A stretch of DNA of 28,496 nucleotides, taken from the IMG/VR virus record IMGVR_UViG_3300002514_000083, positions 1 through 28,496 of that record; one strand, given 5' to 3'. Below are positions 906 to 28,496 of this stretch, in pieces; within the stretch, counting starts at the first letter, position 1, and every line of letters begins with the position of its first letter. This DNA comes from a virus. The notes under the pieces were generated by a model that searched no databases, was not told the DNA's origin, and saw only the letters and a list, made by a program, of their open reading frames with translations. Position numbers and translations under genes: made by a program.

Positions 906-1324
906 ACCTAGTAGTGTTATTGGTGCTAGGTGGGGCATTGATTGTCTCATTACTACTTAATGTATTCTTTGTTTGGTATTTAAGAAATCTTGTATCTCGC
1001 CTCCATTTCGTTTCAGAAAACCTTGGTGTTCTCGTGGATGAGACTATCTCTTTCCGCGATCACTTGGAATCTGTACATGAACTGGAGGCATTCTACGGAG
1101 ATGAAACTCTCGGTAGTTTAATTCGACATGTCGGACAATATTCTGAAACTCTTGTTGATTTCGAAGAAATCTACACGCTTTTGGACGAAGATGAAGAAGA
1201 AAATTTAGAGGAGATAGATGTTTATGACTACGAGCGACAAAGCGAAGGTGGTGAAGCTACCGACACCGCCCAAGAAGAAACGCAGAAAACGAACAAAAAG
1301 ACTGTATTTTACTCAGGTTCATGA
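902..1324 (+). CDS. Small membrane-anchored phage protein, unknown function (140 aa)
   Basis: The ATG overlaps the preceding stop (ATGA) and follows an AGGAG site at about 889-893. Residues 3-27 form one strongly hydrophobic helix (LVVLLVLGGALIVSLLLN then VFFVWYL). A soluble, acidic tail rich in Glu/Asp follows, with clusters LLDEDEEENLEEID around residues 92-105. The tail most likely faces the cytoplasm, because Arg residues follow the helix (positive-inside rule; inference). The last 35 residues are encoded in the segment that also encodes the start of the late sigma factor in another frame. There is no lipobox or lytic motif. It could be a spanin-like or membrane regulatory protein, but nothing in the sequence decides this. 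Confidence 0.7.
   Translation: MNLVVLLVLGGALIVSLLLNVFFVWYLRNLVSRLHFVSENLGVLVDETISFRDHLESVHELEAFYGDETLGSLIRHVGQYSETLVDFEEIYTLLDEDEEENLEEIDVYDYERQSEGGEATDTAQEETQKTNKKTVFYSGS
1209..1213 (+). promoter_or_regulatory. Ribosome binding site of the late sigma gene, inside the upstream gene
   Basis: AGGAG lies within the coding region of the small membrane protein. It is spaced 4 nt from ATG 1218 and 10 nt from ATG 1224. It supports a true out-of-frame overlap rather than a later sigma start. Confidence 0.6.
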
Positions 1325-1961
1325 GGATGCAATTATACAATATGTTAAGACTGAAAGTATAAAAGAAAGAACAGAACTGTATGTAAAATATATAGAGCCG
1401 GCTTTTGGCGAGATGGTTGATAAGATAGTGTTTACTTATAAATTTACTACTCTTCCAAATATTGATGCGCTTAGAGATGAGTGCAAAATATGGCTCATAA
1501 CTATTCTTAGTAAATACGATCCCAACAGAGGGTCTAAGGCTTTTTCTTATTTTAGTGTTATTACTAAAAACTGGTTTATCCATCAGACAAAAAAGAGAAG
1601 CAAAAAGAGAAGAACGGAGGTTGAGCTTTCGGTACTATCAAAAGAACTAGAACTTAAACACATATCGACCACAAACCCTTATGATAAAAATCGAGAAACA
1701 AAAGAATTCTTAGGCCTGCTTCGCGAAGAAATAGACTCTTGGGAGCACGAAGATATGAAGCCCAACGAAGAAAAGGTTCTTAACGCCATCCGGATGCTTT
1801 TTGATGAGGCTGATAATATCGAAATTTTCAATAAGAAAGCTATTTACTTATATATGAGGGAAATTACTGGACTTAATACAAAACAGGTTGTTAACAGCCT
1901 AAACAGTATGAGGGCCAAGTATAGAGTTTTCCGATGCAACTGGGATAAAGGCGACTTATGA
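1218..1961 (+). CDS. RNA polymerase sigma factor for late transcription (T4 gp55-like)
   Basis: The protein has 247 residues. A very basic N-terminus (KKKRRKRTKR, about residues 19-28) precedes a helical region. Residues 96-124 (TILSKYDPNRGSKAFSYF, then SVITKNWFI) match the sigma region 2 signature of gp55-type factors, where a D-P-x-x-G-x-x-x-F-x-Y-F pattern contacts the -10 DNA and core polymerase. Residues about 205-238 (AIYLYMREITGLNTKQVVN) resemble a helix-turn-helix of region-4 type, longer than in T4 gp55 (185 aa). Its role would be to direct host RNA polymerase to late promoters such as those of the downstream tail genes. The start is either ATG 1218, only 4 nt after AGGAG (1209-1213), or ATG 1224, 10 nt after it. 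Both overlap the upstream gene by about 100 nt. No T4-like clamp-binding tail is visible at the C-terminus. Confidence 0.82.
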   Translation: MFMTTSDKAKVVKLPTPPKKKRRKRTKRLYFTQVHEDAIIQYVKTESIKERTELYVKYIEPAFGEMVDKIVFTYKFTTLPNIDALRDECKIWLITILSKYDPNRGSKAFSYFSVITKNWFIHQTKKRSKKRRTEVELSVLSKELELKHISTTNPYDKNRETKEFLGLLREEIDSWEHEDMKPNEEKVLNAIRMLFDEADNIEIFNKKAIYLYMREITGLNTKQVVNSLNSMRAKYRVFRCNWDKGDL

Positions 1962-5469: not shown

Positions 5470-8400
5470 ATGCCTAAAATAAAAAATATACAGAACAAGA
5501 CCAGCTTAGATTCCTTCGCTCAAGATCAGAGAGCTTTTTCAGCCGGACCCGGCGCAGCAAAAAGAAAGAAAAGAAAAGACAAGCTACCTAAAGCTTCAGG
5601 CCCCCCAAAGGCCAAGTCTATTTCTGGCGCCACCGGAGATCTCGATTCTCAGGTTGAGGCATTTAGATTTTTAGAGTGTGATCCGATATCAATTAATGGC
5701 GCAGAGCCTGTGGAATGTCCAGTTTGTCGTCCAAATCCAAACGCTTATGTTCCAGATTATACTCTCATGACTCCTGGTAATACTTATTTTGACGGAAAGA
5801 CTTGTACATATTGTTATATGTTAGAAGTTGCCCCGCCGAACCGCGGCGGCCCAAAAATTTCTGAATTAAAGAACCCAACTAAAAAACAGGAAGACATTAA
5901 GAGGATAGGAATAAGAAATCTTCTAGAATACCATGGCAAGTCTGATGTTGCTGTGGTGTACTATTATGAAGAAGAAGGGTATAAAACAGATACCGAAACC
6001 GAAGCGAATCTCATACTCAGTGCCGCCGGCGCCGGCGCTGCCACCGGTGCGGCGATAGGATCCGCCGCCACTCCCGTTGGCGCAGTCATTGGAGCAACAA
6101 TCGGCGCCATTGTCGGCATAGGAGCCGCAATCGCCATTCCGGATCCGGTACCAGGCTATGTTTTGAGAGCAGAACAGAGAGATGTAGTTGAGGAGTTGCT
6201 TGATTATACAGAGATCAGATATACGGTACCAATCCAGATTAAGGGCCGAACAAAGATTGCTGTATGTATCGACGCCGAAGCGTGGTCAAGGGTGCCGGCA
6301 AAGCTCGTTACGGATCCGGATACTCCATTTGAAACTGATTATGAGGTTACTTTTACTGGAGAAGATTTTGAGCCCATGTTCAAGAGAGCCGCCGGAGACT
6401 CATTTTTGGGTTTATACCTTTACGCCGGCGGATTTAGGTTATATCAAAAACAGCTAGAAAAGTGGAGAAATCTGGAAGGGGGGATGCTTAAAACAATTGA
6501 CGGAAACAAGTCTGCCATATTAGATCTTGAGTTCGAAGCCGAGATGCTGCTGCACTTCCGCGACAATGTTATGGAAATAATTGATGAAGCAACCGGGTTG
6601 TCGATGACAGATCTGGAGAAGATAACTTTTAAATTTGAACCAACAGAAGATCCGACCACAGTTACAAATCCGAAAATAAGATTAAAACAGATGATCTTCA
6701 ATAAGCCAGGATGTCCAGAGATAATATTCAGCAACGAAGATGAAGAGGGCAAGGGGTTTTTCCGTAAATTGATCGGCAAGAGTCCATTCAAGGCATCTCG
6801 TAGTCTTTACTATGTTGGCTCCCTCCCGGATATGGACAAGGATCTGACTGCTGGTGAGCCCGTCCCATGGCTAGAATTTGTATTAAAGTATACATATCCA
6901 ATGTTGCAGGTGTCCTATGATTCAGATAACTTAAATTTATTTAACGATCCATCGCTTGGCGCTTGTTTAGCAGATTCTCTTCTTGACGAAGAAGGCGTTA
7001 TCGGAGCCATGATGGAGGCACTGGGGGCTGAACTTTCAGCCTTGCCTGACGCAATACTCGGTGGGCTAGCAGAAAACTTGTGTTTAACGCAGGAACAGAT
7101 GGAGGAAAAAGATTTTAAACTCGGAGACCAATTGGACGAAGATCTATCCAAAACATGGGAAGACGCCAAATCTGAGATAGGAAAAGGAGATCCTTATTTA
7201 GACTCAGTGTTCATATATCTGGAATCGATCCTAAAGAAAAAGAAGTCAGATGATGAAACCATGGGCACCATCTGGGATACTTTGATGTCTAGATTGGGCT
7301 ATTGTGGCTGGATTGCCTTAATAATGAAGGCTCTCGACTGCCTTATGCAGGGAATGGATCAGGAGTCTTTTATGAAGGCTACCGTTGAAGCGTGGCTCCT
7401 AGAGGCCAATGATTATGTTTTGCAGGGTGTTATCGCCGGCCTACCACAAGAAGATAAAGATCGAATTCAGGCCCTGTCCGATGAAAAGTATGCAAATCTC
7501 CCTCCGCCATGGGATACAATGGCTTACCAGATAGGATCTTATAATTCACCCGGTATGACGACCAGTGAAGCATATGAGGCCATCATGGCTGGCGAAACTG
7601 GAGCAGGAGAAGAGGCAGATGCTGCACAGGAAGCCAGCGCAGAGGAGGCCGCGGCCGAATATACAACATCTCAAGTAACCATACATACAGACTATGAGGC
7701 CAAAAAAGCTGACCTCGAAGCCCAAGAGATGTCGGATGAATACAAAGTCGCCGCCCTGAAGATTCTAGAAAAAGAATATGAAGACGCACTATATGATCTA
7801 AAGTACTCACCGGCAGATCCAGCCAGTGCCCTAGAGGGAGATGAAAAGTTCTGGGGAATAGCTTATTCACCTGAGACGGACGACTTCTCTTTCGGAGAGG
7901 GTTCAGCCGGCGCCGGAGGGACCTATGGAGAAGCCATGGGCGATGTTCAAAAAGAGGTTTTTGATGCATACAGGAACCTTCTTTTGGATGCTGTCGGTGT
8001 CGATGTTCTCTTTGGAATGATATCAAAAGCGCCTGGTGGTGGAATAATTGGGCAATTTTTCAAAACTATTCCTTGTAAGTTGCCACCTCCATGGACTTTC
8101 GATCCACAGCTTGATAGTTTCTTGAATACGCTTGAATTTGATATGTGTCAAATCGCTGGAGGCAAAGTGTTTGATATCACCATGCCGCACTTGGCGGACA
8201 GATGGAGACTCAGTGACTTCAATCTGCACAAGCAGCTTTGGAACGCCGTCAAAATAGCCATGAAAAAAGCAGTTGTAGCCATTGTTGTTGCAATGCTTAG
8301 GGGCCTTATAAATTCCTTGTTAACCGCCGCATGCGATGCCCTTAAAATGCTTGGGGCAAACTTAGCTGACCTATATGACGGCAGCGATCATTTTAGAAAC

Positions 8401-11400
8401 CTGTTGTTAGAAAATCTATGTCCAGACGCCTCTGCCGATCAACTCAACGCGTCTTTGAAAAATTTCTTTGGCGCACTAGGAGGGCCAGACTCTGATTGTC
8501 TGGCTTCGCTTTCAAATGGAGAGATGGGAGAATATATAGACGACATATCTTTGATGCTGACCCAAGAACAAGTTATGCAGCTATTACAAGGAAATGCAAC
8601 CCCTGAAACTCTTGCTTTGGCGACGGAAACGGCCAGAATTTCCACCTCCGAGTGCATCCGTGATCTCTTTTCAGATCCTGCTGCAATTGCGCAATTCTTC
8701 AGATCTCTCAATATATTTGTCCCCGCCAACGCCTTCGAGAGATATATTCCGGATCTTCCAGTTTCCCCGTGTCCCCCTGGAACATATGCTAGGATAGAGG
8801 ATATAAAATGTGGCCTTCTGTCCAAGAAGGGACTCAGCAAGAAAGAGTGCCGAGAAGAGCTTGATAAATTAAAAGATAAGTCGATTCAAGACTTGCAGGA
8901 TCTCATTAACCTTATGGAGAACGGACCCCTTGCTGACTTCCCTCCCATCCAATCTTCCGCAGAATGCCCAGTCGATGGTTTTTATCCCAACAACCCGGGC
9001 CCAGTCGATGGCCAAGCGAATTCTTCAGTTTCCGCATTATTGCTTTCCCCTATAGAAACAGGGGTAATCAAAGATTTAATGGATTCAGATGGAGTTCTTA
9101 ACAATATCTTGGCTGATACTGAAGGCCGGCGTTGGACATCACACAACACCAAGGTTAGATGGTTTGGAGCACCCCTTGCTCGCCAAATGGGAATTTTTGG
9201 GTGGAACTGTGATGACTCTATCAAAAATCCAGATGGCGGCGGCTCTGTCGATCAATTTGGGAATACATTATCTGGGCAAGATGCAGGCACCCAGAGCTGG
9301 ATCATAAATTTGGGCGCCGGCGCGCAAGGAGGTTTTCCTCCGACAGTCGGAGCATGGATGGCCAAGAAATTTAGATCAATGAATCCTGAGCTTAAAACCG
9401 CGATTATACCCTCTGGATATTCTTCTTTGGCCGAAGCCAAGGCCGATGTCGAAGAGAAAGAAGCCATAAACGCCGAAAGAATAGAAGCAAGACAAAAATA
9501 TGTTTCAGCGTTTATTAAGGAGCACGGAATAGATAGCGTCAATGCTACATCTGATTCCGCGGAACTTGCCGGAATGCTACGGAAAGCTTGCTACTCTGCA
9601 AGGGTTTTTGAAAAAGGCATTCGACACAATTGGGAAGAAGTGGAAGACTATGAAGTCCCGGCATCTGTATATTGGCTTGAAATCTTATTAACTGGTGGCG
9701 AAATAGATTGTTGCGGCACCGAATTTCTTGGAATGGGCCACTCCGCGGTATACTCAGTCCAACAAGTAAAACCAACCGGTTGGTCTGATTCCTCACAAGA
9801 ACTAGCAGGCACAGAGGGGAAAATTTTTGTAGACCACTACCCTGCCGACGACTGGAAGCTAATAGATGTGCCCGACATTATGACTCCGGATTTATCTTTG
9901 AGCTATTCGTCGCACGACACCAACGATGAGGGCGAACCTACATTTAGTTTTAATCTTGCTTATGATTACAATCTCCCCGACAAAGATGGGTTTATCGGCA
10001 AAAGAAATGACTACACTATTCGGATTAAGGTCACAACGGCCAGCCCGCCAGAAGAAGATGAATATGCAGAAGGACAATTCTCAGAACCAATCATTACAGG
10101 AAAAGCTTATTCTTGGACGGACTACAGCTTTAAAGTGGAGGCGAACTTAGACAAAGACACAAGACGATACATCAATGAACTTCCAATGAGCAATCATGTT
10201 AATGATTCGTGGCAAGCTGAAGTTTTCTATCGTATGATTTCTAAATCAATAATCGACGCTTCCAGTAATAAGAGCGAGACATCTGCCGCTCTGGCTGCTG
10301 ATTCCGTCAGGGCATATTTTTCTACTTCCGGATCCGGCAAAAAGTTTGATGATATCACTTCTGGATTTTTTAGGAGACTCGCAAATAGGATATCAACAGG
10401 GCGCTCATTTGCAAACCCCAATATAGATATTGACGATTCTGACGCAGATGAAGCCGGCTTTTTAGAGCCGGATGTTTCAAATATTGTATCTGATGATGTC
10501 CCTAGTGATCCTGTTATGGCTAACATTGCAACAGGTTTTTCATATGGATACAATCAAGACGGGCCAGAAATTATATTCCTTGACAATGAAACATACGGCG
10601 GCCCACTAGGAAGGCTCTTCCCGGATCTGGTACCTCCTCCTTTTTATGTCGCACCTCCTAAATATACCGGCTGGAAAGAGATTGCAGAAGCATTTGTCCC
10701 TAGTCCAGATGGGTGTGACCCTGCGCGTGGCCCTCTCTTTACTCTCGGCGACCTTGAGCAAAAAGCTTCTCAGCTAACATCGAAACTGGAACAAGACGAG
10801 AGATTTTCACAGGATCCGTTGTGTACGCAAGAGGCGCCATATGATAAAATATTTGAAAATTCTACAATAGCAAATATTGATAGCGTTCTACGCGCAGCCA
10901 CTAGAGTTTATATCACAGAAGCATTTATGAGAGCAGTTCCTATAATTTCTCAATTTGAGTTTAACAAAGACAATATTGAGTCTGGAATTGTTGAGTTTAT
11001 TGTTGAGAGAATAAAGAGGGGATTAGAGCCCGATGGGGTTTCTAAATGGTTATGGTGGAACGATAAGACAAATGATGATGATTATTACTACAGATTCATT
11101 GAGCAGGCATTTAATGTTGTATCTAAAAAGGTTGATTCTAAAATTTTAGATCCTGAAAAGGATTTTAATTCCGAAGAGAAAAGAGCATATAACACAATAA
11201 AAACAAAAATTGCCGAATTTTATGAGAAAAATGATGGTGATCTAGCGGCTCTTTCTTTCTCGGCAATAAAACATCAATCTTTTATGGCGAACATGTTCGA
11301 TAACACGGCTACCGCAAAATTTGGCGGAATAGGCGCAGGATCGTCAGATTTCTCTAAAGGAGCAGCAGAGAAGGCGAAGGAGTATGCCTTTGAGCTAATG

Positions 11401-12759
11401 ATAGATGAGACAATAGACTCCGCGTTGGTATTTGTAAAAAGAATGGTTAGAGAGGAAATACCTATTGTTGGCAACATGTTCAATTCGAAACTGTATCCAC
11501 CTATAAAGAATATAGATCATCTTTTCTTGTTGAGCCCTGCCTGGATCCGCGGCGCCGTGAATGGAGATGGGCCACTTGATGTAACATCTGATCCGACAAA
11601 AGCTAATAAATATAATATACCATCCGGCCAACACACTTCTGTTTCCGAAGCAATTTCAGAGTTACAATCATCAGGATTAACAGACTTGGCCTCTAGTTTT
11701 GAAACTGCTTATGGTGGTATGAGTGAGTGGCCATTCGTCTTGGAGAAATATGTTCGAATAATTGATCAGGAGTCTGTCCCCGCCGAAGTAGCTAATAGGT
11801 CAGAAAATCTTTATGATATAGTTAACATGTCAGACTGGAAGACATATGTTCAGAGAATAAAATCTCAGGGAGTCACCGGGAAGATATCTGAATTTTTTGG
11901 AAAAACTCCTATAACTGGGGAGACGACACTCGATAGCGGGCACACCCACGAATATGAGGTAGACGAGAAAGGAAATGGATTTGCTTTTAGGGTATGTGAG
12001 GATAAAGACGGCCTTGATTGTCATGTACATAGGATAATAAATTGGAAAGTAAAAGAGTCCGACGATCACGAACACGACCTCCCCATGCCGGCTTGGAGAT
12101 TTGGGTTGCGTTTGTGTTATTTACCAGAAGCAGATGAGAGCAATACATTCCGGCCAATAATTTCAACGATAGATAAAGAGGCGAGGATGAGAGAAAAGGC
12201 ATATGAATTAGCTAGTCCTGAAGGATCTAGGTTCTTGATCCCCATCGCGTCCGCAGAATTAGAAATACCAGATCAGGAATTTTCCTCTTTCGATCCAGAA
12301 TCATATGATGTATATTGTCTAATTCCGGAATTGATAAAGAGCGCAGAGTATAAATCGTTGTTTAGGTATGTTTTTCCGTTCCATAGATTTTTGTCTTTGT
12401 TAACTATTTATTGTATGCAAGGTTTTTACGATTCGCTAGGTAATGAAGGCTGGCCTGATCAGGGCGGCGATATGTGGGAAAATAGAGGAGGCAACTTTTG
12501 GAGCAGCTTTAGTGGCTGGGAGAGGGCTGATGAACAGGTTTTCAGCAACTCAAGAGAGGCGGCCAAGAACGCACTTAATGCTCTGTACGAGACAACCCAA
12601 GCGGAATATAGTTCTGAGACCTCATCCAAGGCCGCAGCCCTGTCGTTTGCTGAATTGCTTAAACCAAAACTTAATTTCGAAGACGGCTTGCGTTGGTGGC
12701 AAAGAGGAAAGAGAATCAAAAATAGTCCGTTTAACATGGACGGCGACAACTGTAAATAA
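5470..12759 (+). CDS. Giant virion structural protein with zinc ribbon, glycine zipper and His-x-His pairs (2,429 aa)
   Basis: A single uninterrupted frame. The N-terminus has a basic patch (KRKKRKDK, 31-38). A zinc ribbon follows, with CPVC at 83-86 and CTYC at 112-115. Residues about 183-225 are a Gly/Ala zipper (GAGAATGAAIGSAATPVGA and onward) able to insert in or pack against membranes. Residues about 705-778 are an Ala/Glu-rich coiled coil. Residues about 925-960 form a hydrophobic helix pair (KKAVVAIVVAMLRGLINSLL). PPPW motifs precede Cys-rich segments. Near the C-terminus three His-x-His pairs occur at 2158/2160, 2185/2187 and 2200/2202, in a GHTHEYEVDEKGNG context. Placed between spike and gp25, it is a baseplate or tail-tip component, possibly ejected into the host. 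It is not a typical tape measure, because long repetitive helices are missing. The ribosome site is weak. Function is unassigned. Confidence 0.72.
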   Translation: MPKIKNIQNKTSLDSFAQDQRAFSAGPGAAKRKKRKDKLPKASGPPKAKSISGATGDLDSQVEAFRFLECDPISINGAEPVECPVCRPNPNAYVPDYTLMTPGNTYFDGKTCTYCYMLEVAPPNRGGPKISELKNPTKKQEDIKRIGIRNLLEYHGKSDVAVVYYYEEEGYKTDTETEANLILSAAGAGAATGAAIGSAATPVGAVIGATIGAIVGIGAAIAIPDPVPGYVLRAEQRDVVEELLDYTEIRYTVPIQIKGRTKIAVCIDAEAWSRVPAKLVTDPDTPFETDYEVTFTGEDFEPMFKRAAGDSFLGLYLYAGGFRLYQKQLEKWRNLEGGMLKTIDGNKSAILDLEFEAEMLLHFRDNVMEIIDEATGLSMTDLEKITFKFEPTEDPTTVTNPKIRLKQMIFNKPGCPEIIFSNEDEEGKGFFRKLIGKSPFKASRSLYYVGSLPDMDKDLTAGEPVPWLEFVLKYTYPMLQVSYDSDNLNLFNDPSLGACLADSLLDEEGVIGAMMEALGAELSALPDAILGGLAENLCLTQEQMEEKDFKLGDQLDEDLSKTWEDAKSEIGKGDPYLDSVFIYLESILKKKKSDDETMGTIWDTLMSRLGYCGWIALIMKALDCLMQGMDQESFMKATVEAWLLEANDYVLQGVIAGLPQEDKDRIQALSDEKYANLPPPWDTMAYQIGSYNSPGMTTSEAYEAIMAGETGAGEEADAAQEASAEEAAAEYTTSQVTIHTDYEAKKADLEAQEMSDEYKVAALKILEKEYEDALYDLKYSPADPASALEGDEKFWGIAYSPETDDFSFGEGSAGAGGTYGEAMGDVQKEVFDAYRNLLLDAVGVDVLFGMISKAPGGGIIGQFFKTIPCKLPPPWTFDPQLDSFLNTLEFDMCQIAGGKVFDITMPHLADRWRLSDFNLHKQLWNAVKIAMKKAVVAIVVAMLRGLINSLLTAACDALKMLGANLADLYDGSDHFRNLLLENLCPDASADQLNASLKNFFGALGGPDSDCLASLSNGEMGEYIDDISLMLTQEQVMQLLQGNATPETLALATETARISTSECIRDLFSDPAAIAQFFRSLNIFVPANAFERYIPDLPVSPCPPGTYARIEDIKCGLLSKKGLSKKECREELDKLKDKSIQDLQDLINLMENGPLADFPPIQSSAECPVDGFYPNNPGPVDGQANSSVSALLLSPIETGVIKDLMDSDGVLNNILADTEGRRWTSHNTKVRWFGAPLARQMGIFGWNCDDSIKNPDGGGSVDQFGNTLSGQDAGTQSWIINLGAGAQGGFPPTVGAWMAKKFRSMNPELKTAIIPSGYSSLAEAKADVEEKEAINAERIEARQKYVSAFIKEHGIDSVNATSDSAELAGMLRKACYSARVFEKGIRHNWEEVEDYEVPASVYWLEILLTGGEIDCCGTEFLGMGHSAVYSVQQVKPTGWSDSSQELAGTEGKIFVDHYPADDWKLIDVPDIMTPDLSLSYSSHDTNDEGEPTFSFNLAYDYNLPDKDGFIGKRNDYTIRIKVTTASPPEEDEYAEGQFSEPIITGKAYSWTDYSFKVEANLDKDTRRYINELPMSNHVNDSWQAEVFYRMISKSIIDASSNKSETSAALAADSVRAYFSTSGSGKKFDDITSGFFRRLANRISTGRSFANPNIDIDDSDADEAGFLEPDVSNIVSDDVPSDPVMANIATGFSYGYNQDGPEIIFLDNETYGGPLGRLFPDLVPPPFYVAPPKYTGWKEIAEAFVPSPDGCDPARGPLFTLGDLEQKASQLTSKLEQDERFSQDPLCTQEAPYDKIFENSTIANIDSVLRAATRVYITEAFMRAVPIISQFEFNKDNIESGIVEFIVERIKRGLEPDGVSKWLWWNDKTNDDDYYYRFIEQAFNVVSKKVDSKILDPEKDFNSEEKRAYNTIKTKIAEFYEKNDGDLAALSFSAIKHQSFMANMFDNTATAKFGGIGAGSSDFSKGAAEKAKEYAFELMIDETIDSALVFVKRMVREEIPIVGNMFNSKLYPPIKNIDHLFLLSPAWIRGAVNGDGPLDVTSDPTKANKYNIPSGQHTSVSEAISELQSSGLTDLASSFETAYGGMSEWPFVLEKYVRIIDQESVPAEVANRSENLYDIVNMSDWKTYVQRIKSQGVTGKISEFFGKTPITGETTLDSGHTHEYEVDEKGNGFAFRVCEDKDGLDCHVHRIINWKVKESDDHEHDLPMPAWRFGLRLCYLPEADESNTFRPIISTIDKEARMREKAYELASPEGSRFLIPIASAELEIPDQEFSSFDPESYDVYCLIPELIKSAEYKSLFRYVFPFHRFLSLLTIYCMQGFYDSLGNEGWPDQGGDMWENRGGNFWSSFSGWERADEQVFSNSREAAKNALNALYETTQAEYSSETSSKAAALSFAELLKPKLNFEDGLRWWQRGKRIKNSPFNMDGDNCK

Positions 12760-12771
12760 GGAGACAAGAAA

Positions 12772-13149
12772 ATGGCAGGAGGATTATCTATAGTATTGCC
12801 GTTGGCGATCAGCACGAGAGATGGTGCTTATGCATTACATGATAAATTATCAGATGTTGCGCGCCAGAACTTAAAGATGATCATTTTAACTTCGCCAGGA
12901 GAAAGGGTCATGGCGCCAAGTTTCGGGGTTGGGATTCGATCATACTTGTTCGAACCTCTTAACCCCTCAACTAATGTCTTGATATTGTCTTCCGTGCGAA
13001 CACAGGTGAGCAAATATCTTCCATATATATCTCTTCAAGATTTGCAGGTATTAGAATTCGGAGACGACAACATGATCAATTTGAGAATCAAGTATTCCAT
13101 ACCATCGATAAAGGTTGTGGATGAATTTATATTTCCCATTTCTGTATAA
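12772..13149 (+). CDS. Baseplate wedge protein, gp25/W family
   Basis: The protein has 125 residues, close to T4 gp25 (132 aa). It starts 7 nt after AAGGAGA (12758-12764). It matches the gp25/W fold (GPW_gp25): an N-terminal segment with VARQNLKMIILTSPGERVM and then PSFGVGIRSYLFEP (residues 30-62) holds the family's conserved Glu-Arg followed by P-x-F-G, and an alternating strand region ends in LRIKYSIPS. In contractile tails gp25 bridges the wedge core (gp6/gp7) and the first sheath ring, and it acts like sheath's inner template. The gp6 homologue follows directly, which is the expected order in T4-like and P2-like baseplate operons. This is one of the most secure assignments in the window. 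Confidence 0.93.
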   Translation: MAGGLSIVLPLAISTRDGAYALHDKLSDVARQNLKMIILTSPGERVMAPSFGVGIRSYLFEPLNPSTNVLILSSVRTQVSKYLPYISLQDLQVLEFGDDNMINLRIKYSIPSIKVVDEFIFPISV

Positions 13150-13167
13150 GAAATAATAAATGTCAAA

Positions 13168-13177
13168 TACTATTTAC
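13168..13177 (+). promoter_or_regulatory. Candidate late promoter element TACTATTTAC upstream of gp6
   Basis: The 46-bp gap between gp25 and gp6 contains TACTATTTAC 18 nt before ATG 13196, with GGAGAG (13185-13190) as ribosome site. The same 10-mer sits in the only other gap of similar size (27902-27911), and AATGT precedes both by 4-6 nt. Position and sharing suggest a -10-like element read by the gp55-type sigma. It is not the T4 consensus TATAAATA, so the assignment is tentative. Confidence 0.4.
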
Positions 13178-13195
13178 TAAAGATGGAGAGATCAT

Positions 13196-14992
13196 ATGGC
13201 CAGAAGAAAGGTACCAGTTAAATACACGAGTAGAGATTTCGAGACCATAAGAAACGATCTCGTAGACTACGCAAAAAGATATTACCCAGATACATTTAAG
13301 GATTTTAGCGAAGCTTCTTTCGGTTCTTTGATGCTGGACACTGTTGCTTATGTTGGGGACATGTTATCTTTCTATGTAGACTATCAAGCCAATGAGTCAT
13401 TTCTTGATAGCGCAACCGAACGAGACAACATAATTCGAATCGCAAAGGAGCATGGATATAAATATCAAGGCGCCGCCACAACTGTTGGCGAGGTCACATT
13501 TTATGCGCTAATACCCGCAAACACCTCTGGCCTAGGCCCCGACAGCCGATATTTTCCCATTCTTAAAAAGAATTCAACAGTTTCAGGCGCCGGCGCCTCA
13601 ACCTACATTCTCACAGAAGATGTTAGATTTGATAATCCCGGAAACTATGTTGTAGCTTCCCGAACCGATCCTACTACTGGTCTTCCCACCCAATACGCAG
13701 TCAAAGCAAAGGGGCCTGTTGTTTCTGGGATTTTTGGTATAGAAGATATTACCATAGGAAACTTTGAAAAGTTCAGAAAAGTTCCTATTAATGTCTCCCA
13801 TGTAGCAGAGATATTACAGGTACTAGATGCTGACGGCAATGAGTATTTTGAAGTAGAATACTTAACACACGATGTAGTGTATAAGTCTGTGCCGAACAGG
13901 GATGCGAACACCAGAGACAACGCCCCTTCTTTGCTCAGACCATTTTCTGTACCAAGAAGGTTTACGGTTGAACGCGGCGGAGGCGCAACATGGCTGCAAT
14001 TTGGCCAAGGATCAGATTCAGAAATCTCTTCTCCCACTGTAGCCGAACCATCAACAGTGATATTAAAGCGCCATGCTAAGAGTTATGTAACAGACTCAGC
14101 GTTTGACCCATCTGACCTGATGGGCACAGACAAGCTCGGAGTTGGGCCGGCCAACACCACGCTAAGAGTTTTTTATCGTAGAAATGCCGGCATTGATTCA
14201 AATGCGGCCGTTAGCGCCGTAAATTTAGTGTCGAACGCCATTGTTGAATTCAACGATCCTTCTTTACAAAATACCCCAACCGCCAGAGATGTTATTGGTT
14301 CTCTGGAATGCTCTAATGAGGAGCCGATTAACGGCTCTGTTTCTACTCCAACTTTGGAAGATATCAGGAGAGAAACATTGAATTTCTTCCCAACTCAAAA
14401 CAGGGCAGTTACGGCTTCTGACTACGAGGCGTTGGCCTATGCGATGCCGGCCTCACTCGGCGCCTTAAAGCGATGCCGTGTGGTAAGAGATCAAGATTCC
14501 TTGAAGAGGAATTTAAATATGTATGTTCTCGCAGAGAACACCACCGGCCGATTGGCAACTGCGAATTCCGCCCTCAAACAAAACTTAAAAGAATGGCTAA
14601 ATAGATATAGGATGGTTAACGATACGATAGATATTTTAGATGCTAAGGTTGTTAATATAGGGATAGAGTTTACAGTGCTGTCTGATGTCTCCGTCAACAA
14701 ATATGATGTTTTGTCTGCATGCACAGAAAGGCTTAGAACGGACTTAGCAAGGGAGATGTACCTTGGTGAACGATTTTATCTAACAGAAGTTTATAAAATA
14801 TTGAATAGGGTACCGGGAGTTGCTGACGCTCTAAGCGCGAAGATAGTCAATAAGAGTGGGGGCAAATACGCCCAAACAGGCTTAAGTATTGATAATTTTA
14901 TGTCAACGGACGGCAGATATCTTTCTTGTCCAGATAATGTTGCTTTCGAAATAAAATATCCTAAAGTAGATATACAGGGAACTGTTAAATAA
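13196..14992 (+). CDS. Baseplate wedge protein, gp6/J family
   Basis: The protein has 598 residues, near T4 gp6 (660 aa). The N-terminus MARRKVPVKYTSRDFETI and the helical segment SFGSLMLDTVAYVGDMLSFY, followed by YQANESFLDSAT and IAKEHGY (about residues 20-90), are characteristic of gp6/Baseplate_J proteins. The middle is beta-rich. The C-terminal third has RAVTASDYEALAYAM (about 402-416) and REMYLGERFYLTEVYKILNRV (about 519-540), matching the J-type C-terminal domains. gp6 dimers form the continuous ring that ties baseplate wedges together around the hub and rearrange on sheath contraction. The gene follows gp25 after a 46-bp gap with a candidate promoter, and its stop overlaps the next ATG by one base (TAATG). 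Confidence 0.93.
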   Translation: MARRKVPVKYTSRDFETIRNDLVDYAKRYYPDTFKDFSEASFGSLMLDTVAYVGDMLSFYVDYQANESFLDSATERDNIIRIAKEHGYKYQGAATTVGEVTFYALIPANTSGLGPDSRYFPILKKNSTVSGAGASTYILTEDVRFDNPGNYVVASRTDPTTGLPTQYAVKAKGPVVSGIFGIEDITIGNFEKFRKVPINVSHVAEILQVLDADGNEYFEVEYLTHDVVYKSVPNRDANTRDNAPSLLRPFSVPRRFTVERGGGATWLQFGQGSDSEISSPTVAEPSTVILKRHAKSYVTDSAFDPSDLMGTDKLGVGPANTTLRVFYRRNAGIDSNAAVSAVNLVSNAIVEFNDPSLQNTPTARDVIGSLECSNEEPINGSVSTPTLEDIRRETLNFFPTQNRAVTASDYEALAYAMPASLGALKRCRVVRDQDSLKRNLNMYVLAENTTGRLATANSALKQNLKEWLNRYRMVNDTIDILDAKVVNIGIEFTVLSDVSVNKYDVLSACTERLRTDLAREMYLGERFYLTEVYKILNRVPGVADALSAKIVNKSGGKYAQTGLSIDNFMSTDGRYLSCPDNVAFEIKYPKVDIQGTVK

Positions 14993-16556: not shown

Positions 16557-19500
16557 ATGGGCATAAAAGATTTATTCAGTGAAAAGACAACAGGAATAAT
16601 TGCAAAAACCAGCCTCGAAGAAGAGGTTGTTCGCAATACTCCTGAGTTAGAGTCTTCAGAAAATATAAAAGAACAAAGAGAAAGAATAGATCGATTTATT
16701 CCTCTTGTAGATTTCAGCGATCCAAACAACTTTGTTCATTATGGTTCGGCCGAGGCCTACTATAAGGATGCGATTTCTCGCATATACAATCAATATCCTT
16801 ATGATGGTACCGCTCGCGAGAAGCAAGAATTCTTTAATAAGTCAGCATATCTTGACTTATATTTGTTTGAAAATGAATATCCACGCACAACTGGTTATAT
16901 TAATTTTTCTGCTGATGGGTGGGGGACTATTTCAAGCCCAGGTTCTGCTTTAACTGGTGCTGGTGATAGTCCTCACGGAGGGTTCGGTGCCCCTGCCTCC
17001 GCAGACTTAGAATACATTAAGGTTGTCGGCGGCCCACATACCGCCTCCGGTGGCATGTCTGGCTCTTTGGCATTGACATTTGATGATTCCAATATTTACA
17101 ACTCTGATATTTATGGCTTCGAAGGTGTCGATTCCATGGGCAGAGTGGGTACGCGAGAATCAAACCTTAAATTTGATTTGTCGAAAGGAGTTTCAACAGA
17201 ATTTTGGATCAAAAAAGGAGATTATCAATATGGACGAGCTAGAGGCTCGGTCATGATCGTCTCCAGCACGCCCAGTGAATACGACGGCCACTATCTTGTC
17301 ATGTCGTCTTCTGACGGAACAGGAAGGCAGTATCAATTTGATGATGATCAAGACGGATCCCAGACCGGCACCACTTTGACTAATCCTCGTCGTGTGCGCA
17401 TCGATATCACTGGCGATTCGTCGGCAAATGCTATAGCTGCTAAGGTTGTTACAGCAATTAATCACGAGAACGGCCATAACGGCAAAATAATCGCATCGCA
17501 GCCCAGCGCCATGAGCAATGTAGTTCAGCTAATACAGGCGACTCATGGTCCCGCGGGAAATCATGGTATTTTCAATTACTTCTCTCTGCCTCCGCATAAT
17601 ACCCCTATCAGTGCCGTGCCCGCCCACACGGTATATCAGCCATATAGTTTCTCATCCTCAGTAGATTTTATCTCCCCCACATCACGCGTTGCCCACCGAG
17701 CCCGGCCGGCAGAGGAAGCAGTCTTTGATCTCTGGAATGGGGCCGCCTCATCGAGCGTTGGATATGGACGATTGTTGATAACCTTGTCTGGTAGCAGCAA
17801 CTCAGAGAATCCGTTTAAAGTTCATCTCGCTTCTGGTTCGAATGTATGGGATATGTCTTTTGGAGGATCAACCACCACCACTGCATCCCTAAAAGATACT
17901 TGGAACCATGTTGCTTTCACATTCCTGTCCAGTTCGGCCGATAACCAGTTGCAGACAAATTTTTACTTAAACGGGACCCTACAAGATTCTCAGACGACCA
18001 CCACGGTTCCCTTTGGTCAAGTGACCGGCTCTCTTATCGCATATATCGGCGCCCTTCAAACAGCGCCTTCCGGCAACTCCTATTTTGATGGTACCAGCGC
18101 AGCGCTTAATATGACTGGATATGGTAAGTTTTCTGGCTCTCTTGACGAGTTCCGCTATTGGAAAAGCAAAAGAACAGAAAGAGATATTCAGAGAAACTGG
18201 TGGACTCAAGTTCGCGGCGGAACAAACAAGGACATTGCGAACGCCGAATTGGGCGTTTATTATAAGTTCAACGAAGGAATTACGGGCACAAGCTCAGTCG
18301 ATAGATCTGTTTTAGATTACTCCGGCCGCATTTCAAATGGAGACTGGGTTGGGTACCCAAGCAGCAATGCTAGAAACACTGGATCGGCCATCATCTCCGC
18401 CTCCGCAGCCCCATCAGAATTTGAAGATCCGATTATATACTCGCATCATGACGAGGTTCAATCTCTTTATAATACGCTTGCTGCAACCGGCAGTGTATAT
18501 GATAATCAGAACAATGCGAGCATAAAAGATTCTATTCCTTCGTGGATCCAAGAAGATGAGGAACTTAACGGCGCCGGCCACTTAGATAAAATTACGCAGA
18601 TTATGGGATCATATTTTGATACTCTGCATTTACAGGTGGAGAGCCTTTCAGAATTCGCAGAAGCTTCATATCCAACAGCCAGTCATATGAAAACGGTACC
18701 GTTTTCAGATCACTTGTTGAGTTCACAAGGGCTTTATGCACCAGAAATATTCGTCGAAGCTAGCATCCTTGAGCATTTCGCGAATCGAAAAGATGATAAA
18801 GAATACTCTGTTGATATAAATGATGTAAAGAATCAAATTTATCAGAACATATACAACAACCTTATCTTTATTTATAAATCAAAAGGAACTGAAAAAGCGT
18901 TCCGCAACCTCATTCACTGCTATGGGCTTGGGGATGAAGTTATCAAATTTAATGCTTACGGCAACAATACGACATTTAAGCTCGATGATACATATTATAA
19001 TAGCACAATAAGAAAAAATTATATCGATTTTAACAGCCTTGATCGTTTCGGCGGAACGGTATATCAGAATTCTTCTAGTAATACTGAAACTACTGATGTG
19101 ACCTATGTTTCCGGAACAAACGCCAACTTTGCAAACACGGCAGAGGTGGAGGTCATCTTCCCACGAAAACTCGAATTTTCAGACACTGGCCATTTCTATA
19201 CTCCGTTTTTGTCCGCATCAATCTTCGGCTACCACACGGCTTCAGCGGATCCATCCAAGTTCAATTGGCCGGCCAACACTATACTCGATCAAAACTTTGA
19301 AATTTACGCTGTCCGGACACATGAAGAATCAAAAGATGTATATTTCCAGATAACCTCAAGCGCGCTTCCGGGATTTAGCCTGACTAGTAGTGTATACAGC
19401 AATGTATATGATAATCAAAAGTGGAACTTCGCAGTTAGATTCAAAGATGCAAAGTGGCCCTATTCTACGGGCATCACTGGATCTGGTACCCCCAATGATG

Positions 19501-22500
19501 TTAAAATGGAGTTTATCGGATACAATACTGAATATGGCGTAGTCAAAAATCAATTTTCCTTAACTGCATCGGGTCTCAATGATAAATTCTTGACCGGACA
19601 TAGGAGATACTATGCTGGAGCCTCACGAACCAACTTCACCGGCGCCATCGCAACAAATACAGATGTAAAAATATCATCAGTGCGCCATTGGGCCACATAT
19701 CTTAATGATGCCGTAATTAAGGCACACTCTCTGGATCCAGAAAACTTTGGTGTTCTTCATCCTGCCCGTAATACCATATTTGCCGCAGACTCCACAGATT
19801 ATAAGGTCGACAACAATGAACTCTTAGAGAGTGAAACGCTGGCCTTGCACTGGGACTTCTCACAAATAACCGGCTCTGATGCGCTTGGTCAGTTTGAGGT
19901 TGACGACGCTTGTTCAGGATCCGTATCTCTTCGATCTCGTTATCCAAGTGACGGAAACTTATCGCACATCATAGCCAATATGTACGCCGGCCGCGGATAT
20001 TTCCCTTCTACAACAAGCTCCGCTAAAGTCGTTGATAAGAATTATGTCGCATCTTCAAAGCAAAGACTGCCGGAAGTAGTTAATAGTGATGATGCAGTTA
20101 ATGTGTTGTCGCAGGACGACGATCTTTTCCCCAGCGATCCCGCAGTTTCACAGACATTCTTTGCTTTTGAAAAGAGCATGTACGGAATAATCTCTCAGGA
20201 GATGTTAAATATATTCGGAACGATTGTTGAGTTTAATAATCTTATTGGCGAAGTAACAAGCAAATATCGCAGCGGCTACAAAGACTTAGACAGGTTGCGC
20301 GCACTATTCTTTGAGAAAATCGAGAACAATCCGGATCTCGACAAGTTTATCGATTACTATAAATGGATCGATAATTCTTTGTCTGTAATGATCCAGCAGC
20401 TAGTTCCAGCTTCAGCAAATGTTGCAGACGAGATCAGAACTGTTGTTGAGAGCCACATTTTCGAAAGAAGTAGCTACCGGCACCAATATCCGATGGTCAA
20501 CGATCTAAATACCGCGGCCACGGCGATTGAGGGGGTTGAGGGGGGCGTGAAAGGAATAGGGGAGCTTGCCTATGACTGGAAACATGGCCACGCCCCCGTA
20601 AGTGATGCTCAGGGCACAAATGCTCTTTGGTGGAGAGAAAGAGCAGGTAGGGACAATGCACGCTTCGGAACATCCACATCGATAAACAGCGCCAGAGGAT
20701 CCATTAACGATATTATACTGAGTTTTAATTCTTCTTCTTATAGTAAAGAGCACTTTGGCGGGCAGGGAACAGACAGATATCAGGGATCCTCTTATTCTTT
20801 GAGGCAGCTATCTTCCCCGTTTAAGCTTACTGCGGATATTAAATCATCTCCTGATCGACTTATCCATGGCGGCTATAACTTTCCAAGATCACAAAAACCT
20901 GATCTTGTGGCCAATATCATCCGACCGGGCTCCCCTACGAGCTTGAAGGTTTCGAAAGGTAGCTTTAAGGATATTGCCGCGGCTGAAACTGGGAAGCCTA
21001 TTGTCGAAACAAAAAGAAGGTTTGAACAAACAACAACAGACAACTCTTCTATAAGCGGAGAATTTGAAGGAGATGGAAAAGCCGAGGTGTTCTCTCCAGT
21101 GGTACTGTACAGTTCATCTGCGACCACCGGATACATATCCAACACTAGCAATGTAGAGTTCGCAGGCTATCATACAGATGTCTATGGTCCATCATACGAA
21201 ACTCCAATGCAGGGCCCCTTTACTGGTGAGCATGTTGGAGGAAAGCAACATAGGCATATTTCTCCCACTATAAACCCTGCACTAACTTCTTCCGACAACC
21301 GCCCAGAAGCATGGGAGGTACATAACGGAAATACCTTTACAACCAGAAGTTCCATGCATTACCCGCCGGCGTATGCTAGTTATCATCGTGATGGCCTGGC
21401 CAAACGACCGGTTAATATCAAGAATGTACAGTATTCAACGGCCTCTGCTATTCTAGGAAACTATTCAAATACTTATGAAATTGTGCAGACTTCTGACCGG
21501 TCTATTAATAAAAGTGATTTCGTCAGAAATGAAGGGTACAGTAGCGCTAGCGCCGGAACAGAGGTGTTTTCAGATCTGGTGGACTACACAAAGCCCACGA
21601 GAAGAAAGACGCCTCATGTTATTGTTGAAAGATTTTCTGCTCCTGGAGATCCAGCTACCATGGGTGATGCAGCCGGCGGCTCTGGTTTGGATTTCTCGTC
21701 TGCACAATATTCTCCATATAATAATTTAAATTACAGAAATCTTGTAATTCGACAACCATTGCAGTCTCAATTGGTCGAGAGATCTGAACAATTTGGAATT
21801 CGTTCCGGTTCTTTCATTTCAGAGGCTGAATATTATACTTTGAATACCACTGCGAGCTATCACAAGGTTAACGCAAATAAACTTCAGCGAATAGTCTATA
21901 CAAATGACCAATTCGGAGGCAACGCCGCGGCGTGTGGAACTGGCTCTATGTATGATAACTATTATGTTCAACACATGATTCCAAGATCTGATAGGCAATA
22001 TACTTGGATAAATGCGTCCGTCTTGAGCAGTGATCCAGAATCTCTTGGCTATTTCCCAAAAGATGGTCTTGCGTCCTCATCCGCGGGATTGGTCGCTGCT
22101 GTGAGCTTTGTTAGTTCCAGCGCCATGGGTGCGGAAAATCTCTTAGGTAGCGCTGTTGGGACTGTGCCGGTACCGTATGCGAGAGCTACTAATCCTGCCG
22201 AGTTTACGCCCGTTGATTTTGTTGGGCTTAATACATCTATAGTAGAGCCAATATCGGGTTCAGATTTTACCCTAGGGTATGCTTTACCGGCATCTTCTTA
22301 CAATTATTATAACTGGGCCGACATGGGCGCCTATGCTCTGGCAACATCAAACCCCGAATCGTTCTTACAAAGAATTGGCTATTGGACCGCGACAAACAAA
22401 ACTTTCCGCGACGATGCATATGCGCTAAATTCTATTCTCTCCCACCGCAACGGCCCATACGGTCACCCAACTTGGAAGCAAATTAGGGTTGGCGAAGGCG

Positions 22501-25500
22501 CTCTAGCAAGATTTTATCGTAGAAACAATATCTATACCCACACTCCACTTGGGGGTGTCGAAAAAACCGTAAGCACTCCAAATGGCCTCATGACTGTTAG
22601 GGACAAATATGCATCATCACTATTTATTTCTCAGTCCGTTGTTACTTCTAGGTGTAAACCAATTACACAGCAGTTGTTGGTTAAGTCTGGAGTGAGGCGC
22701 ACTATCGAAGTCAGCGCTGATTATATCAAGGCCGTTGTGGTCAGATCAACATATGCAAACGGCATAACATACTTTGATGATAATAATTTCAACCAAAAGA
22801 CTGGAATTAAGGCAAGGAGAGGGTTCTCTTCTTATGATGAGATAAAGAAAATGTATCTTTACGGCGCACTGGACTCCACAACCAGTCCAGTAGTTGGAGT
22901 AAGAAGGGTTCACTATTCAGAGGTGGTATATCCGTCAATCGCCAATTCATATACAAACAAGGTCCGCGGCAGAACAGGCTATCAGAATAACTTCTGGAGA
23001 GACAGCAGAACAGACAGGACAACTCTTGCAGCAACCAAGAAGGATAGAAATTCCATGGGTTATGTCCTTGCACAGAGTGCTTGGGCCCTTGATGCCGATG
23101 AAACTTTTGCAGAACAGACGCAGACGACATATCCGGTCACTGGTGGGTTAGTTGGCCATGCTGCAACGGGCTATAAGCCCGGTGAGTTGCAAAATCGAAA
23201 TGTGCAGTTCCACTCAGGCAGTCGACAAGGCGGCGGCCGGAAGTTCTTAAGAGGCGGCCCTCTATACTCTCGATACCACATAATGCCAACAACAGCCTCA
23301 GTTATACCGCGGTGGGGTATGGTTGGAGTTCAAAACCACTTGAGAACCCCTGGTATTTCAGACTACAACTTCGGCCTACATAAAGGTTCAATGTTCCGAG
23401 GACAGGCGAAATGGGAAGCAGGCACCAAAGCAGGGAGAGCTTATGGTACCGCAAGCGCGTTCACCGCCTCGGCCCGGGCCCCATTCGCTGATACTTATGA
23501 TGAATGGTTTTCCGAGATAAGATCAAAAGGACAGGCGATGTCCATCATTCCAGAGTTTCGCATAAGCGAGCATATGAGTTTCTATAAGAACAATGATTAT
23601 GATTTCACAGTGACGAATCCGATAGCTTTACAAATACCAGGCGCGCCAACTGGATCTAATATACCGCAAAACGAGTCAGAAGATAAATTCTATAAAGTGT
23701 TTACAAATTCAGACTTCCTTAAACATTTTGATATCATAAAAGACGACCACAAGGACTTTGTTGAGCCATGGTCTATAACGATAAAATGCAAGGCAATTAA
23801 GAAATTCATCGCATATGATGGGTTCTATCCAGCAGAGAGAACTTTGCAGATGGCGTCACAATTCTCGAAATCGTATGGTAGCCACATTAAATATACGGGC
23901 GCCAACCGCGCCCAGGCCGCGGCCTTAAGGTCATTTGTTACGCCACTCTTCGCACCGGGAATCCTTTATAATACCATCAAATCAGGCATTGCCGTTGATT
24001 ACCCGATTATGACCGGCTCATTCGCCAAACGGCCCATCTTCGACCTGAACAGCGCCTATACTGATCCCGCCACCGCAACCGGCGAATATCAACAACAACT
24101 TTATTCTGCTTCATTTGCTATAGCTAGTAACTCTAGGCCAGTAGCTGCAACCTACGATCACGGCCATGGCTGGGATAAGAGAATACCATTCGAAGCGCTT
24201 CTGGAACCAGAACGCTATATGTCGTATGTTAATATCGCCGATGACGAGCCTAGCCCCTACTGTTGGGTGGATGCTACATCATCCTGGGCCGGCCGGGGCA
24301 ACAATTTATATAAATATATGATGCACAATTTCTTGGCGGAGACAACAAGTTTCTTTATGAAAGGTGGTACCACAACATCGCTTAAATCAAAGCCAGAGTC
24401 AGAATGGTTGTCCATAACGCCCGGCAGACCATATGGTATGAGAATCAAGATTCGCCGAAGTATGAACTCTGTTAAGCCCCCGACCGGTCCATGGGGAGAA
24501 TTTCCACTTCCACAAAATGCGGCATTGTTTAGCGCATATGAGCCTGAAGTCGTCGAAATTGGAGATTACGAGGCCACGCAGATGCGAGCCATGGGCGCGG
24601 GGAGCAACAATGCAACGCCGAGAGAGAATTTTACAATGTACAGCCGTCCGTCTGCTTTCGGTCCGCCCCTTGCCGGAGTCATGCCCACCAACAACGCCGG
24701 CATGTATCGGGCCAGTGGATCTATTTTCGAATTTGGTTCTGATAACGGCATATACGGTTCCCACACTCCTCCATATTATGATGGAGAATCATGGATTGAC
24801 ATAGTGCACTACTCCAAGGGATTAGTTGCTGTTTCCAGCAGCCACCCGACCAGGCCGCACACATGGGCCATGGTCTCTGGAAGTGATGTCGAATATCCAG
24901 CATACCAGCCAACAATGACTGAGATTTTCTCTCTGGCCAACGCCGCCGTGTTCAACTCTGGAGATGGAGGTACACCAGGAGATGGAACTTTTGTTAGGTA
25001 TTGGCGCTATGATCAAGAGGAGCTGGGCAGAAACCTAGGTTCAGCGATACCAAGCTCTTATCACCGGTACAACGCGGCTGGAATAGGGCCCGCCGGCGGG
25101 AGCTATATTAACAATTGGGCAATGCAAGGCGATGCAAGTTTGAACATTTTCAAGCAGGACGGGACTCGCTGGTCTATCGAGTCTAAATTCGAAACCCCAA
25201 TGCTTAATTTTAACCATGTTACTTCTTCAGATGGTACTTTCACGCCGCGAGATTCTCTGGATGCTAGCAGCACCATACCGAGAGGAATGTGGCATCAATT
25301 TGGTCGCCTTCCAAAAGCCGACGAAGGTGTGTTTCTTGAAGTTACTGATATTCCGGATGGTTGGCTTGCAAATCATCCAAGCGCAACCTTGATTCATGAT
25401 CCTGCTGGCATCATAAGCGCCAACAATCGAACCCCGCGAATCCATGATAATCTCACCTCGGCAAACATCTCAACAATATCTTATTATAATCAGTATAATT

Positions 25501-27886: not shown

Positions 27887-27901
27887 TATTAATGTGCGAG
27901 T

Positions 27902-27911
27902 TACTATTTAC
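27902..27911 (+). promoter_or_regulatory. Candidate late promoter element TACTATTTAC upstream of the last gene
   Basis: It lies in the 46-bp gap 27887-27932, 21 nt before ATG 27933, and is identical to the 10-mer in the gp25-gp6 gap. AATGT occurs 6 nt upstream, as in the other copy (4 nt there). The leader downstream carries an AGAGGA ribosome site (about 27915-27922). Tentative, as for the first copy. Confidence 0.4.
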
Positions 27912-27932
27912 AACAAGAGGAACAATTAGGTC

Positions 27933-28496
27933 ATGGCAGCAAAAGTAGATCTTTCTAGTATTTTCGACAACGCTTTGCCGATGGCGTATGTTCGTAAGAT
28001 TACTCTGTCTGAGGGGGATGTGGGTTCGAACAGGAGAGACCCGAACGACAAATCACAAAAAACCAACATTACAAAAAACCAGTATGGAAAGGCGAAGATT
28101 AGATCTGGAGTAAAAAGCTCAAAAGGATATGAGGGCTCAAGAAACATGACGGTCACCGTTGATTTGGTCCTCAAGGATGCTTACGGCACAGACGGCCAGC
28201 CGTTCTGGTTTAATAACGATGAGCTTTTAAGATACTTGAACATTCGTGTAATATTGTGCAAAGATAAGGCCACTGGTCGTAAATTTCTTAAGAATGGAGT
28301 ACGACCGCTAGCCCTCAGTGAAGCCAAGACCTCCAGCCAAATTGAAGAAAAAATCATTGCACTTAAAAAATCTGGCTCTATAGAACTTAAAAGCCAAAGA
28401 AGAGGCACCGCCGGCAAAAAAAAGACGATATACTCTGTTCCCTATTCTGTTAGTTTTACTGTCGATGAGCTTTATCCTGATCATTTATCGATATTC
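27933..28496 (+). CDS. Phage structural protein, N-terminal part (3' end outside window)
   Basis: ATG 27933 opens a frame that runs 188 codons to the window edge without a stop. The N-terminus is MAAKVDLSSIFDNALPMAYV. The beta-type stretch GSRNMTVTVDLVLKD and then WFNNDELLRYLNIRVILC lie at about residues 70-110. A Lys/Arg-rich segment with KSGSIELKSQRRG around 150-162 precedes YSVPYSVSFTVDELYPDHL at the visible end. It is soluble in appearance, with no signal peptide. I do not recognise a named family. Its place after the conserved 346-aa protein in an all-structural run suggests a virion protein. Confidence 0.65.
   Translation, partial: MAAKVDLSSIFDNALPMAYVRKITLSEGDVGSNRRDPNDKSQKTNITKNQYGKAKIRSGVKSSKGYEGSRNMTVTVDLVLKDAYGTDGQPFWFNNDELLRYLNIRVILCKDKATGRKFLKNGVRPLALSEAKTSSQIEEKIIALKKSGSIELKSQRRGTAGKKKTIYSVPYSVSFTVDELYPDHLSIF

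Follow-up and report, generated by a model that had tools for sequence, protein, structure and literature searches.

Do two intergenic gaps that share a 10-mer mark the late promoter of an uncultured phage? The question was raised by an earlier note on the window (the whole stretch of viral DNA analysed here, 28,496 nt), which proposed that the shared word may be a late promoter different from that of T4. The window is an exact match to 28,496 bases of a 74,646-base IMG/VR record (G001, IMGVR_UViG_3300025141_012665), and all its predicted genes run rightward.

The 10-mer TACTATTTAC occurs twice on the coding strand of the window, at 13168-13177 and 27902-27911, with no third copy there and no further one in the 38,360-base record G000. 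As had been noticed, it lies in two gaps of equal length (13150-13195 and 27887-27932, plus strand, both 46 bp), the match is exact, and its distance to the ATG is nearly the same (18 and 21 nt from the end of the word). These are also the only sizeable gaps in the window, the next largest measuring 20 bp; an apparent 88-bp gap at 1325-1412 was an artefact, since the gene caller had set the start of the sigma ORF (1218-1961) too late.

The first gap separates a gp25-like baseplate wedge gene (12772-13149, plus strand; phrog_261, E 2.9e-21) from a gp6-like one (13196-14992, plus strand; phrog_10646, E 2.6e-24; phrog_219, E 5.3e-24), and contains GGAG at 13185-13188, a likely ribosome-binding site. 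The second gap, with GAGG at 27917-27920, precedes the last gene of the window (27933-28496, plus strand, with the remainder beyond the window), which encodes 1205 aa and has no PHROG match and no Pfam match above the cut-off. Two giant genes of 2429 and 3429 aa (5470-12759 and 16557-26846) flank the gp25-gp6 baseplate genes.

From the window alone the case is modest, since a shared word of at least 10 letters arose between two Markov-matched 46-mers in 16 of 3000 simulations. Scanning the window with up to two mismatches to the 10-mer gave no excess (22 seen vs. 24.3 expected), so the signal is the exact word. The pentamer AATGT, described as lying shortly upstream, does precede both copies, but its spacings differ (9 and 11 nt, first base to 10-mer). 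We rejected it as part of the signal because it lacked conservation at 20 intergenic sites of relatives and 63 sites of four further genomes.

To go beyond the window, we gathered relatives with two different baits. The gp6 protein (window 13196-14992) gave a first set of 27 loci in viral contigs, and the sigma of the window gave 67 non-redundant loci, a set from which four full-size relatives were taken (172-195 kb: G028, G031, G033, and G030). With our own gene caller, all 8-mers were ranked by how far they were enriched in the stretch 8-40 nt before gene starts relative to the remaining sequence. This ranking replaced a de novo EM motif search of all upstream regions, which was swamped by the ribosome-binding site to the point that even a ACTATTTA seed drifted away.

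The relatives narrowed the conserved part to the 8-mer ACTA[T/A]TTA, usually followed by T, and the final C of the 10-mer in the window is not conserved. They point to ACTATTTA as the functional core and to ACTAATTA as its minor form. In the window, the exact core, a candidate late-promoter element, lies on the plus strand inside the two 10-mers, at 13169-13176 before gp6 and at 27903-27910 before the 1205-aa gene.

When eight divergent records were pooled, ACTATTTA came top of the 7298 8-mers found upstream, with 20 copies there and 19 elsewhere (p 2e-22); G001 by itself (74.6 kb) likewise put it first, at 7 and 4 copies (p 3e-9). Its 24 one-base variants included a single one with clear enrichment, ACTAATTA (4 upstream, 1 elsewhere, p 2e-6); the runner-up had p 0.02. 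The enrichment before other genes over coding background, which the earlier note had proposed as a check, was thus found in G001 and again in all four independent full-size relatives, where the word ranked first with 20 upstream and 7 elsewhere in G028, 9 and 7 in G031, 15 and 5 in G033, and 10 and 4 in G030. When the gene starts were shifted circularly 1000 times, the observed counts were never reached in any of the five genomes: 19 vs. a mean of 1.35 (maximum 6) in G028, 9 vs. 0.70 (5) in G031, 15 vs. 1.03 (5) in G033, 10 vs. 0.69 (5) in G030, and 7 vs. 0.30 (3) in G001.

Other samples of the sequence pointed to the same word. In the 67 loci around sigma relatives, ACTAATTA ranked first (15 upstream, 17 elsewhere) and ACTATTTA third (12 and 19) of 21,348 words. 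The intergenic DNA of the four full genomes contained ACTATTTA 60 times vs. 4.3 expected under an order-3 model, the top z-score of any word, and 109 of the 188 ACTAWTTA copies in 11 records sat 5-60 nt before a start; for the control, the same word reversed, it was 7 of 95. What counts against a promoter is that about half of the ACTATTTA copies of the divergent set (19/39) fall outside the upstream windows. Besides, G020 (IMGVR_UViG_3300009418_004726) has no ACTATTTA in 51 kb despite a 60% identical sigma, a weak test because the record has only 31 genes.

Regarding the genes that carry the element, it precedes one whose product (~300-330 aa) begins with MAFLDNSG in all 11 records of the window clade, and the 75 nt upstream of that gene show nothing else that is evidently conserved. 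In Flavobacterium phage immuto, TATATTTA precedes the orthologue by 21 nt; in Microcystis phage Mel-JY01, CATATTTA precedes it. In the full genomes, the element is found before the neck protein gene gp13 (4/4), the tail tube gene (2/4), and gp6 (2/4), G031 having it before gp25 instead. Among 25 first-set records, 17 have the exact site before gp6; the eight records without it within 60 nt include G022, with ACTAATTA, and G011, with ACTACTTA. For the family of the 1205-aa gene, the orthologue in G022 has ACTATTTA 16 nt upstream and a third member, in G020, does not. The DNA primase gene lacks the element in 6/6 cases. Two observations count against late use: the genes for TerL (0/4) and the major capsid protein (0/4) have no element within 600 nt, and a NadR-like gene and another that we take, from our own reading of its sequence, to be PhoH-like do carry it, neither being obviously late.

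A conserved ACTAATTA was also seen inside the terminase gene of G028, G031, G033, and G030, ~308-322 nt upstream of gp20. It corresponds to the codons Asn-Lys-Leu-Ile, with Leu always encoded by CTA, which makes up 11-15% of Leu codons, and possibly represents an internal promoter for gp20.

As a control, we ranked upstream words against same-strand coding DNA in known phages. The first-ranked words were TATAAATA in T4 (21 upstream, 7 coding), CTAAATAA in Aeh1 (with ACTAAATA, 10/3, fifth and GCTAAATA, 8/2, sixth), AATAAATA in S-PM2 (11/7), and CATAAATA in Ochrobactrum phage OC (10/2). The top words of T4, Aeh1, and S-PM2 agree with the late promoters described in excerpts of two papers (PMC2988020, PMC2984593), which give the letters TATAAATA for T4 (PMC2984593) and [AG]CTAAATA, with C at -12, for Aeh1 (PMC2988020). 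Thus, for the gp55-encoding phages whose late promoter is known, the ranking puts that promoter first. The T4 word itself was not enriched in the clade, with no upstream copy in G001, G028, G031, and G033, and 2 upstream and 5 coding copies in G030.

Matched to T4 positions -13 to -6, the clade element reads A at -13, C at -12, T at -11, A at -10, T or A at -9, T at -8, T at -7, and A at -6. T-11 A-10 and T-7 A-6 are common to it and the T4-like late promoters compared here. It shares C-12 with Aeh1, has T at -8, and differs from TATAAATA at -13, -12, -9 (mostly), and -8. The layout is that of T4 late promoters with gp55, namely an 8-bp -10-like element without a -35 element, ~20-26 nt before late genes, and a gp55-type sigma encoded by the phage; however, T4 has T A and A A where the clade has A-13 C-12 and W-9 T-8. 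Aeh1 is similar in A or G at -13, C at -12, T-11 A-10, and T-7 A-6, and differs in having AA at -9/-8 where the clade has WT. The cyanophage S-PM2 (NATAAATA), a marine T4-like phage, shows the same layout, but with A at -12 and AA at -9/-8. Since ACTAWTTA departs from the reported consensus forms (TATAAATA, NATAAATA, and [AG]CTAAATA), we classed it as a variant of the T4-type late promoter. No -35 signal stood out at the 20 intergenic sites or at the 63 further ones, which leaves a single -10-like element. The cryo-EM study of T4 gp55 (PMC7892883) reports flipping of bases -12, -9, and -8 into pockets of the sigma, and these three are among the positions changed in the clade.

The putative reader of the element is a gp55-like late sigma of 247 aa encoded at 1218-1961 (plus strand). 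That the phage encodes a gp55-type sigma had been suspected from the window, and both profile and fold agree: phrog_234 matches at E 3.4e-5, and the best structural alignment of the AlphaFold model (pLDDT 79, pTM 0.42) is with open-complex T4 gp55 (7d7c_F; Z 10.8, rmsd 4.9, 126 residues), with other sigma families close behind in the ranking (Z 8-10.7, the next at 10.7). Foldseek alone gave no match to the model at E <= 0.001.

T4-type gp55 has ~185 aa, with region 2, a helix-loop-helix, and a clamp-binding tail only. The clade sigma is larger than gp55, with ~80-100 extra C-terminal residues that include invariant positions and have no T4 gp55 counterpart. They form a conserved helical domain (window 1668-1958, residues 151-247, NKKAIYLYxREITGLNTKQ...), which was predicted alone as four helices (pTM 0.74) and gave no confident Foldseek match on its own. 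Its identification as sigma region 4 was not upheld: whole-model alignments reach residue 246, but with an rmsd near 20.

In the alignment, the T4 pocket residues N13 (an uncertain column), L54, R57, H95, and T99 correspond to T, I, T, F, and S in the clade, and Y97 is unchanged. A single pocket residue behind the promoter change was rejected, since phages that read AAATA have the same residues (F at 95 in both S-PM2 and OC; S at 99 in Aeh1); no one-residue code follows.

By profile, sigma relatives were found in 8 of the 27 gp6-bearing records, many of the others being short fragments, and the seven other than that of the window are 54-73% identical to it. At least 577 candidate stretches encode a sigma relative among the matches listed. 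Seven loci (L215-L221) lie in MAG contigs labelled Flavobacteriales, Winogradskyella, Methanoregulaceae, and Nitrosopelagicus, some labels thus being archaeal. Some of these contigs are probably mis-binned phage contigs, and on account of their binning we left the MAG loci out of host assignment.

We conclude that ACTATTTA (consensus ACTA[T/a]TTA) is very probably the -10-like element of the late promoter of this phage, read by its gp55-like sigma. A late promoter differing from that of T4, as the earlier note had it, is therefore supported by the enrichment, the placement before structural genes, and the sigma, in an amended form: the element is ACTAWTTA(T) rather than the 10-mer, AATGT is excluded, and the sigma has an extra domain.

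The nearest cultured relatives are immuto and Mel-JY01, whose sigmas are 28% and 26% identical to that of the window. Immuto has the upstream words TATATTTA and ACTATTTA, and Mel-JY01 has ATATTTAT; both share TT at -9/-8 with the clade and differ from it in having mostly A at -12. The TATATTTA count of immuto mixes in a host-like GTTGC class, and we rejected these sites as wholly late, since most have GTTG-like bases ~25 nt upstream of the word. The immuto genome (MW353176) also presents a repeated early-type promoter, AGTTGC-N17-TATATTTAGGTATCAATAATTAAAAC, before a run of short genes, for example at 67621-73812.

Immuto is where a host sigma factor, primary or alternative, could be taken for the reader instead of the phage sigma: many of its TATATTTA sites lie 17-18 nt after GTTGC, before short genes, and resemble a two-part host-type promoter. 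Bacteroidota promoters (TTTG...TAnnTTTG) slightly resemble TATATTTA, and a 60% identical sigma relative was found in a Flavobacteriales MAG contig. However, the ACTATTTA class has no upstream partner, the window-clade genomes have a separate canonical TTGACA/TATAAT class, and the series ACTATTTA, TATATTTA, [AG]CTAAATA, and TATAAATA tracks the carriers of gp55-type sigmas, so we regard reading by a host sigma as improbable.

This second class, a TTGACA-like hexamer followed after 16-18 nt by a TATAAT-like one, precedes 22, 8, 27, 13, 6, and 3 genes in G028, G031, G033, G030, G001, and G010, respectively, vs. 3, 3, 6, 3, 0, and 1 in the antisense control. CTTGACAT and CTTGACAA are over-represented in the intergenic DNA of window-clade genomes. 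Of 972 genes, 5 have both promoter classes upstream, vs. 7.8 predicted by independence, so strict exclusivity of early and late promoters is not established and was rejected as unproven. Downstream of structural genes, three gaps of G001 (oriented; 67991-68013, 68539-68577, and 70945-70986) share CGTGTTATA, an extended -10-like word, followed by AT-rich DNA.

The position of the word just upstream of ribosome-binding sites would also suit an element of the RNA 5' leader, such as a translational operator or a ribonuclease cleavage site, present in the transcript as ACUAUUUA. Against this, its spacing to the start codon is variable (mostly 15-40 nt, median 22 nt), a spread resembling that of the late promoters of T4 and Aeh1 (median 26 nt in both), and it lines up with known late promoters base for base. 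Terminator-like hairpins are also commoner in gaps with the element (9/45) than in those without it (15/209, p 0.013), as at the border of a transcription unit; this support is modest, and the association is absent in G030 taken alone. An RNA-level element is thus very unlikely.

In most close relatives, the bases directly upstream of gp6 are TTTACTATTTAR or a near form, and this is where the gp25 gene ends (Thr-Ile-stop). Among 17 records with such an end, several near-identical (G008, G009, and G010; G006 and G007) and the independent cases therefore fewer, Thr is ACT in 16/17 and Ile is ATT in 16/16, the remaining record having Thr there. The stop codon is TAA in 8 and TAG in 9, and neighboring codons vary freely; overall, ACT makes up 32% of the Thr codons of the relatives and ATT 49% of their Ile codons. 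It is the word that is kept rather than the peptide. That the word is non-regulatory and merely encodes the gp25 C-terminus, as its place in most records could suggest, has next to no probability: gp25 stops earlier and the word persists alone in the gap in the window, in G002 (gp6 61% identical), and in G022 (53%; as ACTAATTA), which already contradicts it, the codons are nearly frozen to ACT ATT, and the word also precedes unrelated genes.

For a late promoter read by the phage sigma, we propose that the gp55-like sigma encoded at 1218-1961 would join the core of the host RNA polymerase and read ACTATTTA without a -35 element. Taking the T4 register, transcription would begin ~6 nt downstream of the word, with predicted +1 positions at ~13182 and ~27916, and the leader of 14-17 nt would carry the ribosome-binding site ahead of the structural genes. 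Early genes would be served by ordinary sigma70 promoters (TTGACA-N16/18-TATAAT), and we infer late timing for the genes behind the element. In immuto, early starts would lie at GTTGC-N17-TATATTTAGG, and late starts 5-8 nt downstream of ACTATTTA or TATATTTA without GTTGC.

The clade sigma differs from T4 gp55 in its extra C-terminal domain, and the T4 partners gp33 and gp45 were undetected in the clade. Neither gp45 (PF02916, phrog_223) nor gp33 (PF16805) had a profile match in five clade records or in immuto, and phrog_223, the one gp45 model applied to Mel-JY01, had none there. All three models find the control phages T4 and Aeh1, the PF02916 match of Aeh1 falling below the cut-off. For gp44, the four full genomes showed weak AAA-type matches only, G001 and immuto showed no match, and Mel-JY01 matched at 6e-77. 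It is possible that gp45 and gp33 are present in the clade but diverged below profile detection, as Mel-JY01 illustrates for gp45: its gp44 match is strong, yet gp45 goes undetected there. More tentatively, and in our view rather doubtfully, the gp55-type late program of this group might have dropped the replication-coupled machinery (no gp45 clamp, no gp33), with the helical C-terminal domain of the sigma doing the job of gp33 or of sigma region 4, and the promoter reset at the bases flipped into the gp55 pockets. If so, late transcription would be independent of a phage sliding clamp, unlike in T4.

Among open-licence papers, to which our literature search was limited, we found no published description of the ACTAWTTA motif, and the Far-T4 paper (PMC4360716) contains no mention of promoter, gp55, sigma, late transcription, or motif. 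In excerpts of PMC5780444, the late genes of Ma-LMM01 are reported as sigma70-like; thus, this layout is not universal among T4-like phages.

ACTAWTTA is likely a T4-type late promoter with a changed consensus, common, as far as sequence comparison goes, to a broad group of uncultured aquatic phages and present in a related form in two cultured ones. The result is a consensus late promoter for a large group of aquatic phages, most of them uncultured, so that sequence alone suffices to mark late genes in their genomes. Together with the sigma sequences, TATAAATA, [AG]CTAAATA, TATATTTA, and ACTATTTA make up a natural series of variants in which the pocket-flipped bases change, so that the sigma-DNA code becomes testable. 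Finally, with an extra domain on the sigma, and with gp33 and gp45 undetected, it may be asked whether the coupling of late transcription to replication by a clamp is general in T4-like phages.
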